DNA from: a virus
IMG/VR virus record: IMGVR_UViG_3300031825_000413
Span: 1 to 36,853 of that record
DNA length: 36,853 nucleotides
Direction: 5' to 3' (one strand)
The position numbers were made by a program, and so were the translations under genes. Under the pieces are notes generated by a model. The model searched no databases. It worked only from the letters and a program-made list of their open reading frames with translations, and was not told the origin of the DNA. Of this stretch, positions 9,428 through 10,825 are shown piece by piece; position 1 is the first letter of the stretch; every line of letters starts with the position of its first letter.

Positions 9428-9652
9428 ATGAGCTACGGAACTCTCGGAACGACGGACCTTGAACTGCCTGTGACTTTCTCGCGTACCGGGACTGGGCCAG
9501 GCACCGACTGGCGAGTGACTGGCATCCTCAAGTCGGTGAAGCACTTCCGGGATGAGTTCGGCGAGTCGCTTACGACGGTGTGGGTGCAGTTGGGTGATGA
9601 TGCCGGGGTTGTGAAGTTCACGGTGCCTTCGATCCTGGCGACGGACGAGTAG
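9428..9652 (+). CDS. Small plus-strand hypothetical protein
   Basis: 74 residues, MSYGTLGTTDLELPV to PSILATDE, read against the direction of all surrounding genes. Codon use is like the rest of the phage, and the sequence has ordered strands (TTVWVQLGDDAGVVKFTV). A 16-bp terminator-like stem-loop begins 4 bases after its stop. No strong ribosome site is visible (only GCCGGGCT before the ATG). Function not recognised. It is the only forward gene between the left edge and the repressor, so separate regulation is likely. Confidence 0.65.
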   Translation: MSYGTLGTTDLELPVTFSRTGTGPGTDWRVTGILKSVKHFRDEFGESLTTVWVQLGDDAGVVKFTVPSILATDE

Positions 9653-9655
9653 TCG

Positions 9656-9697
9656 CGTATGCGCTGGGGCACCAACTCGGATGCCCCAGCGCATACG
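9656..9697. terminator. Strong bidirectional terminator
   Basis: A perfect 16-base-pair stem (CGTATGCGCTGGGGCA and complement) with a 10-base loop, sited between the end of the plus-strand gene and the end of the leftward tRNA region. It should stop transcription from both sides and insulate the terminase operon from the tRNA transcript. Confidence 0.8.
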
Positions 9698-9700
9698 GAA

Positions 9701-9771
9701 GGGCGGACCGCGCACGTCCTAGGAAGCGGGCCCGCGTGACGGTTTCACGCCCGTAGGTCCCACCGTCAATG
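9701..9771 (-). repeat. 71-bp direct repeat, copy A
   Basis: Matches copy B (10155-10225) at 64 of 71 positions without gaps. Both copies lie downstream of a tRNA-like sequence and a stem-loop on the minus strand, with the shared core GAAACCGTCACG and TTCCTAGGACGT. An internal inverted repeat GTGA/TCAC around AACCG is intact in this copy. Likely the product of duplicating a tRNA-plus-tail unit. Confidence 0.75.
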
Positions 9772-9777
9772 TTGTAT

Positions 9778-9805
9778 GCCGCCGATGGCCGTGGCGATCG
9801 GCGGC
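9778..9805 (-). terminator. Stem-loop just after the tRNA-Ser-like gene
   Basis: A 9-bp perfect stem (GCCGCCGAT with ATCGGCGGC) and 10-base loop starting 7 bases past the 3' end of the tRNA-Ser-like gene. A shorter counterpart (GCCCGAT/ATCGGGC, 10233-10265) sits in the same place relative to repeat copy B. Confidence 0.55.
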
Positions 9806-9811
9806 ATTGCG

Positions 9812-9895
9812 CGGAGAGCGGCAGAGTCGAACTGCTGGCTGTTACACCCGATCGGTTTTCGAGGCCGGCCCGCCACCGCTGGCGGTTCACTCTCC
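9812..9895 (-). tRNA. tRNA-Ser(CGA)-like gene with several mismatched stems
   Basis: 84 bases in type II layout: 7-bp acceptor GGAGAGT/GCTCTCC, anticodon loop CTCGAAA (CGA, serine), a long variable arm and T-loop TTCGACT. The anticodon stem CCGGC/ACCGA has C-A oppositions at both ends. The T-stem AGCAG/CTGCC has an A-C at its base, and the variable arm has a G-G. The D region can form a rigid 6-bp hairpin (CCGCCA/TGGCGG) instead of a normal D-arm. It may be decaying or dependent on editing or wobble pairing. No CCA is encoded. Confidence 0.6.
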
Positions 9896-10024
9896 TGGTG
9901 CCCGGCGTGTGCGGGCAAGAGATGACCGAGCACGCACATGCTTCCCTGGGTCATCGTGCGCACGCCCTGTTGATTCAGGTATTGCCAGTCGCCCCTGGTG
10001 CGGGACTGTCACTGTCGGTCGATG

Positions 10025-10096
10025 CAGATGCGCGAGGGGTCGAACCTCGGACCGGCGGTTTTGGAGACCGCTGCTCTACCTCTGAGCTACGCACCT
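10025..10096 (-). tRNA. tRNA-Trp(CCA)
   Basis: 72 bases with a complete cloverleaf: acceptor AGGTGCG/CGCATCT with one G-T pair, TA at 8-9, D-arm GCTC/GAGC with loop AGAGGTA, anticodon stem GCGGT/ACCGC with loop CTCCAAA (anticodon CCA), and T-arm CGAGG/CCTCG with loop TTCGACC. G discriminator. It is the only fully canonical tRNA in the cluster. It would decode UGG and supplement the host tRNA pool. Confidence 0.92.
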
Positions 10097-10154
10097 AGGG
10101 GGTGCCCCGATGGGCGGCCTGCCCGTCGGGCAGCGGAAGTCATCGGGGTCACCA

Positions 10155-10225
10155 GGGCAGACCGAGCACGTCCTAGGAAGCTGGCCTGCGTGACGGTTTC
10201 GCGCCCGGAGGCCCCACCGTCAATG
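10155..10225 (-). repeat. 71-bp direct repeat, copy B
   Basis: Partner of copy A at 9701-9771 (7 mismatches). Upstream on the minus strand lies GCCCGAT/ATCGGGC, and before that a fragment containing GGGAGAGCC and CAGTTCGAC. This looks like the start and T-loop of a tRNA with the middle missing, matching the tRNA-Ser-like gene next to copy A. Confidence 0.7.
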
Positions 10226-10433
10226 ATTGTGTGCCCGATGCCTGCCGTAGCTACAGCGATCGGGCCGTCGAACTGTCGGGGTAGTCGGCTGGCTCTCCCG
10301 GAGGGTTCGAACGTTGTTCTGCGGGGCACCATGTGCACTGGTGTCGGTCGCGGGTATGCATCCCCGGCCGAACATGCTGGCCGCCGCCACACACCTAACT
10401 GTGTGCGACGGATGGGCGATCATGTCCCCTCTG
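10226..10433 (-). other. Gap with tRNA remnants, no gene seen
   Basis: About 208 bases with no convincing reading frame. It holds a stem-loop (10233-10265), TTCGAC (T-loop-like, near 10270) and a second TTCGAAC near 10306 followed on the minus strand by CCTCCGGGAGAG. These pieces look like parts of degraded tRNA genes, but no cloverleaf can be closed. Confidence 0.45.
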
Positions 10434-10511
10434 TTCCCTCGGTCGGGCTCGAACCGACGTCTGTGCGGCCACCTTGCGGTGCCACGGCTCTACCTGTTGA
10501 GCTACGAGGAA
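10434..10511 (-). tRNA. tRNA-like gene with an 11-base anticodon loop
   Basis: Acceptor TTCCTCG/CGAGGGA, TA at 8-9, D-arm GCTC/GAGC with canonical loop AACAGGTA, and T-arm GTCGG/CCGAC with loop TTCGAGC are all intact. The anticodon stem GTGGC/GCCGC pairs, but the loop is ACCGCAAGGTG, 11 bases with no T before any candidate anticodon. The loop can close further (ACC with GGT) on a GCAA tetraloop of the GNRA type. Identity cannot be assigned. It may be a structured RNA derived from a tRNA rather than a decoding tRNA. Confidence 0.65.
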
Positions 10512-10729
10512 GGGCGGCAGGGGGATTTCCAGTCCCCGCCGAGCGTCGACCTAGGATTATGTAGGTCGCTCGGGCCACGACGATGCAGCTACGCACACGG
10601 TGTCCACCCGCTAGGGCTTCGCCTCACCCACTTGGGCGTCGGCTTCCCGCTTCGTCGTGCACATTGCGAGCCGGTCGAATGGCTCGCGCACTCTGTCACT
10701 GCCAGCGTCGGGAGCTACCCGGCGCTTTG
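10512..10729 (-). other. Gap with no gene; one T-arm-like hairpin
   Basis: 218 bases between two tRNA-like genes. The only clear structure is a 7-bp stem GCGAGCC/GGCTCGC at 10666-10687 whose minus-strand loop ATTCGACC resembles a T-loop. No acceptor stem or second arm could be matched to it. Confidence 0.4.
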
Positions 10730-10825
10730 TTCCTCTGGCCGGATTCGAACCGGCGGCTTCCCAACTCGCAGGCCAGCTGGAGTCTGGCGGAGCGGAAGGG
10801 CGACAGCACCCCCATCAGCAGAGGA
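10730..10825 (-). tRNA. Degenerate tRNA-like sequence
   Basis: A perfect acceptor-like pair TCCTCTG/CAGAGGA (8 bp if the flanking bases are included) encloses 96 bases. The T-arm GCCGG/CCGGC with loop TTCGAAT is perfect. A central hairpin GCCAG/CTGGC with loop ACTCCAG occupies the anticodon place but lacks T at position 33. No normal D-arm can be drawn in the GATGGGGGTGCTGTCGCCC segment. Either a pseudogene or an unusual tRNA-derived RNA, and the first element after the cluster promoter. Confidence 0.5.

Follow-up and report, generated by a model that had tools for sequence, protein, structure and literature searches.

In a phage tRNA array, two tRNA-shaped units enclose a structured RNA, about 214 nt long and a member of a previously unrecognised, strongly conserved family of tRNA-array RNAs; units docked to this RNA that lack a canonical anticodon arm preserve the acceptor and T arms, the "processing half" of a tRNA. 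The array is on the (-) strand of the window, by which we mean the whole 36,853-nucleotide stretch analysed (IMG/VR virus record IMGVR_UViG_3300031825_000413), a virus record that carries genes for a terminase, a portal protein and an integrase. Searching IMG/VR with the terminase returned no close relative of this phage, and among cultured phages the closest terminase is that of Gordonia phage TinyDot, at 52%.

Composition of the tRNA array

A preliminary description of this region as one normal and three aberrant tRNA-like units is borne out by ARAGORN, Rfam scores and predicted folds. The canonical gene is tRNA-Trp (CCA; 10024–10096, (-) strand), the sole ARAGORN gene in the array (63.5 bits in Rfam) and the only feature returned by an Rfam scan of the whole window at gathering thresholds, which gave no GOLLD, ROOL or other RNA; sub-threshold matches in the array to mir-610, Plastid-ycf2 and YrlA were rejected as chance or antisense-tRNA matches. 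Unit 1 (9813–9895, (-) strand) is tRNA-Ser(CGA)-like with C-A oppositions within its stems, and its tRNA-Sec/Ser-type Rfam match of 34.3 bits falls below the gathering threshold of 47; a close homologue was not found, and this unit may be decaying. Unit 2 (10434–10511, (-) strand) keeps its acceptor, D and T arms intact, and its fold is the cloverleaf expected from the earlier reading, in which a hairpin closing on a GCAA tetraloop replaces the anticodon loop (z = -2.5). It scores 41 bits as a tRNA in an Rfam region search (threshold 29), with the anticodon region unaligned, and is not listed in the whole-window gathering scan; no orthologue of its sequence was identified.

Unit 3 (10730–10825, (-) strand), a tRNA-Ser-like element of 96 nt, has a fully paired acceptor stem (7/7) and T arm (5/5) and an abnormal D and anticodon region, and matches no tRNA model. 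It had been described as having only an acceptor and a T arm; both arms are there, but a helix also occupies the anticodon-arm position, with a 7-nt loop that lacks U33. Units 2 and 3 share with tRNAs the 7-bp acceptor stem, the 5-bp T arm and the TTCRA loop, and lack the tRNA anticodon arm of a 5-bp stem and a 7-nt loop with U33.

The array is bounded at its downstream end by a perfect 16-bp inverted repeat without a T run (9656–9697), which stands between the array and a small convergent (+) strand gene (9429–9652) pointing towards it, and which is probably a bidirectional terminator shared by the two. No promoter for the array was recognised.

A conserved RNA family in phage and plasmid tRNA arrays

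The 214-nt RNA (10516–10729, (-) strand), which the preliminary description had passed over, begins 1 nt past the unit 3 discriminator base, and its 3' end is 4 nt short of unit 2. When plasmids were searched, the matches fell in this spacer and not in the tRNAs: one on a Prescottella (Rhodococcus) equi plasmid, 74% identical over 236 nt, and one on a Nocardia farcinica plasmid, both beside tRNAs. A pattern search of IMG/VR and GTDB with the shared core gave further members in Nocardia, Mycolicibacterium and environmental phages or plasmids, along with four pattern matches (L034, L036, L037 and L039) that were set aside as unsupported. BLAST with the mycobacterial type of the RNA led to the cultured mycobacteriophages Aegeus, Chaser, DyoEdafos and Bromden, where it occupies an unannotated gap between tRNA genes; this type alone matched, BLAST of the window element and of the L030 and L069 types against cultured phages giving none. 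Near-duplicates apart, we studied 22 other instances, from Nocardia, Rhodococcus (Prescottella) and Mycobacterium plasmids and phages. The 214-nt RNA reaches no Rfam family, and the candidates group I intron and tmRNA were dropped because there is no Rfam match and the spacer lies outside a tRNA, not within one.

The structure was modelled in two ways: R1 is a covariance model of the 5' domain (10660–10730, (-) strand), which comprises P1, the invariant GUGACAGAGUG, P2 and the tRNA discriminator, and R2 is a full-length model built from eight sequences. Both models find members in plasmids and phages that are independent of one another, and R2 recovers mycobacteriophage members outside its seed with E of about 1e-10. 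An alignment of 21 members, fitted to the model, has 96.3% of its cells paired and double changes in 41 of the 47 pairs, compared with 19.7 in shuffles; in the seed as aligned by MAFFT, and thus not fitted, 95.6% of cells pair and 26/47 pairs are double-changed, and the 5' domain likewise covaries strongly in an unfitted MAFFT alignment. An outer stem pairs the strand after P1 with the 3' end, and it too covaries, the window having GGCAG/CUGCC where most members have GGUGG/CCACC. This covariation is decisive in establishing the RNA as a real structured family; the folding energy of the spacer (z = -1.4) would by itself have missed it. When R1 was run against genomes in two overlapping samples of about 400, a single new genome (G208) emerged besides the two query genomes, indicating that the RNA is rare and accessory. 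Seven Nocardia-type members (L004, L028, L038, L059, L066, L069 and L077) carry an extra conserved 3' hairpin, ACUUCGCC ... GGAAGUG, followed about 150 nt on by a tRNA.

tRNA-shaped units abut the RNA and keep their acceptor and T arms

A close association of the RNA with tRNA-shaped units is evident throughout the family. In 22 of the 23 tabulated places (window included) such a unit ends 0–6 nt ahead of the RNA, in most exactly at the discriminator; the exception is L019, with no tRNA in front, and in L026 the unit is a degraded one. The identity of the upstream tRNA varies (Lys, Asn, Ile, Pro, Leu-like and others). On the other side, a tRNA or tRNA-like unit follows 4–6 nt past the 3' end of the RNA in the window, L003, L021, L027, L030 and L101.

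Units without a canonical anticodon arm make up 8 of the 16 distinct upstream units, as against 6/91 units elsewhere in the same arrays (Fisher P = 7.5e-5, near-duplicates removed), a comparison limited to units detected by their intact acceptor and T arms, in which several lineages are still related. Within these counts L103:5903 (annotated as His) is probably, and L026:6121 possibly, an ordinary tRNA; the test is conservative, since the six anticodon-less units elsewhere include at least one annotated ordinary tRNA. Since the other eight distinct upstream units are ordinary tRNAs, this position permits the loss of the anticodon arm without requiring it.

The preliminary description had looked to related phages for conservation of the odd structures and for compensatory changes, and both are seen: anticodon-less tRNA-like units with covarying acceptor and T arms occur in at least seven other arrays. 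Across eleven anticodon-less units the T arm is paired in 100% of cells, with all five pairs double-changed, and the acceptor in 98.7%, with many double changes. Most of their minimum-energy folds are cloverleaves in which 4–6-nt loops replace the anticodon loop, for the most part GACG or GCAA tetraloops or loops of 5–6 nt. Unit 3 itself has homologues in two other phages, one (L105:1876–1968) 79% identical over 99 nt and near a terminase gene, as in the window, the other (L024:8992–9081) with a compensated acceptor change. Behind the L105 homologue no RNA of the 214-nt type was found, and in L024 the homologue sits one tRNA further upstream of the RNA, which suggests that unit 3 has a role or a history of its own.

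These data bear on the choice, left open earlier, between decay and retention for a non-decoding job. On an account of plain decay, the array is plastic and the aberrant units are pseudogenes of tRNAs that only happen to lie beside a conserved RNA; the mispaired stems of unit 1 and its want of a close homologue, the unmatched sequence of unit 2 and the fast turnover of arrays in such elements all fit this account. It does not sit well with compensatory changes that keep the acceptor and T arms paired, with the persistence of unit 3 in two other phages or with the clustering of anticodon-less units ahead of the RNA, and we consider it unlikely as a general explanation, although it may describe unit 1. 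Judged by these sequence comparisons, units 2 and 3 are likely retained for a non-decoding job and not simply decaying. What looks like tRNA wreckage thereby becomes evidence that phage and plasmid tRNA arrays have a second product.

Relation to manA and other array RNAs

The 214-nt RNA resembles manA RNA (RF01745) in its order of elements: a 5' hairpin, an outer stem closing near the 3' end, a GUGAC-containing strand, a hairpin, a multi-hairpin junction, a two-part helix and a 3' hairpin, the comparison of helix order having been made by eye between the R2 structure and the Rfam structure line. The RF01745 threshold of 55.2 bits is not reached by the family. A near-threshold manA RNA (52.1 bits against 55.2) does occur in a tRNA-bearing region of L009, a contig found through the repeat described below, and by eye it has its order of helices and UUAGCG hairpin loops in common with the 214-nt family. 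Since the Rfam manA model does not match the 214-nt family and R2 does not match L009, we call the RNA manA-like and not manA. The two also differ in setting: the 214-nt RNA is flanked by tRNAs and not placed in the 5' UTRs of sugar or nucleotide genes, and has no mannose or other target gene downstream. Published manA RNAs include one next to the tRNA array of a Bifidobacterium megaplasmid (PMC10832533) and one in a tRNA-rich cyanophage (PMC9964418). A weak manA match (L106:1430–1636, 35.7 bits) lies on an actinobacterial genome contig without tRNAs nearby.

GOLLD is another structured RNA found among tRNA genes of phage origin, with a tRNA or pseudo-tRNA inside its gene (PMC6582537), but it exceeds 400 nt and is a different family. 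The tRNA arrays of Mycobacterium phages and plasmids reported in PMC5966550 and PMC12803027 are arrays of the same type in the same or related hosts and on the same kind of mobile element; a term search of the two papers found neither anticodon-less units nor the 214-nt RNA, and the structured RNA described in PMC5966550 is about 430 nt.

In DyoEdafos, an abiF RNA (L103:6198–6234; 41.1 bits, gathering threshold 37) lies between two tRNA genes. The abiF-motif RNA of C. difficile is the antitoxin of the AbiF toxin (PMC12373285), and the DyoEdafos copy is possibly a phage-borne mimic of an RNA antitoxin. One hint at what the 214-nt RNA may do is thus its company, arrays of this kind carrying further RNAs with a potential to act against the host, but this is a lead and not evidence on the 214-nt RNA.

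Proposed release of the RNA from the array transcript

We regard it as about an even call that the tRNA-shaped units are processing punctuation that frees the 214-nt RNA from the array transcript. The array would be transcribed as one (-) strand unit, from about 10.83 to 9.66 kb; host RNase Z or exonucleases would cut after the discriminator of unit 3, the 5' end of unit 2 would be cut by host RNase P, and the two cuts together would free the RNA as a discrete molecule, which would then act in trans. What it would act on is a guess, host defence or translation. For such punctuation the stacked acceptor and T arms would be enough, and selection would therefore keep these while the anticodon arm shrinks to a tetraloop or vanishes. 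In Nocardia-type arrays the next tRNA is about 150 nt downstream, and RNase P cleavage at the 3' end of the RNA is therefore not general. Precursors of phage T4 tRNAs are likewise phage transcripts cut at tRNA boundaries, and in model substrates of RNase P the acceptor and T arm suffice (PMC11143913); the difference is that here the cuts would yield a separate conserved RNA, and that some of the tRNA function, decoding, would be missing from the units.

The same zero spacing could mean that the tRNA-like unit is a permanent, uncut 5' domain that shields the RNA or binds a host tRNA-binding protein. The constancy of the spacing and the precedent of GOLLD speak for such a domain. Many relatives, however, have an ordinary, presumably functional tRNA in this position that would need release, and zero spacing at the discriminator places the junction exactly where RNase Z cuts; a permanent domain is, in our estimate, rather improbable.

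We consider it very unlikely that the 214-nt RNA acts in cis, in the manner of a riboswitch, and has its tRNA neighbours only incidentally. Its architecture is of the manA type, and manA RNA was proposed as a candidate cis-regulatory RNA (PMC2864571), but tRNAs or tRNA-like units adjoin it in most instances and no protein gene is consistently placed as a controlled target. We give least credence to the earlier suggestion that the units are decoys titrating host enzymes, either nucleases that target tRNAs or enzymes that process them: changes in the anticodon loop are thought to let phage tRNAs counter host anticodon nucleases (PMC10264068), whereas these units are missing exactly the loop that such enzymes cut, and decoys leave the zero spacing to the conserved RNA unexplained. 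The link to 3'-end processing enzymes drawn in the same suggestion fits better, with the units as processing signals and not as decoys.

More tentatively, processing punctuation may extend to a wider practice in which actinobacterial phages and plasmids keep dedicated anticodon-less tRNA mimics as handles for releasing a trans-acting RNA of the manA class. If this were true, the manA class would be primarily a tRNA-array RNA of mobile elements and not a mannose riboswitch. Release by tRNA-shaped punctuation offers a reason for the tRNA shape to outlast decoding and casts the manA-type RNAs, of open function since 2010, in a new light; the covariance-supported family lies unannotated in gaps of cultured mycobacteriophage tRNA arrays and is therefore testable at once in the M. 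smegmatis laboratory strain.

A repeated hairpin element in the array

The array also contains two copies of a 72-nt repeat (copy 1, 9700–9771; copy 2, 10154–10225; both (-) strand), each comprising hairpins HP1 and HP2. The 90% identity noted earlier holds; the length is 72 nt and not 71, and copy 2 lies about 208 nt past unit 2 and does not directly follow it. Four of the seven differences between the copies make up two compensated HP2 pairs (GCGGG/UCCGC to GCAGG/UCUGC and CGC/GCG to AGC/GCU), suggesting that both copies have kept their structure since duplication. A further hairpin, HP0, overlooked in the preliminary description, stands ahead of each copy (9776–9807 before copy 1 and 10233–10265 before copy 2, both (-) strand); the latter, GCCCGAU...AUCGGGC, was read from the sequence, and the fold spanned part of it only.

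The loop of HP2 is the 12-nt UUCCUAGGACGU, with a palindromic CCUAGG. The exact loop, on different closing stems, is found in the window repeats and in L005, L006, L008, L009, L016 and L017; in L006, L009, L016 and L017 the hairpin is near tRNA-like or tRNA genes, and in L005 it is just upstream of an HNH-like ORF. L009 also has an 83-nt tmRNA match (L009:6175–6257) that covers the tRNA-like domain only, without an mRNA-like part, and in L006 a comparable tRNA-like unit of 80 nt, read by eye, lies about 150 nt upstream of the hairpin. Present in unrelated phage contigs and absent from Rfam, the UUCCUAGGACGU-loop hairpin is a candidate second RNA motif.
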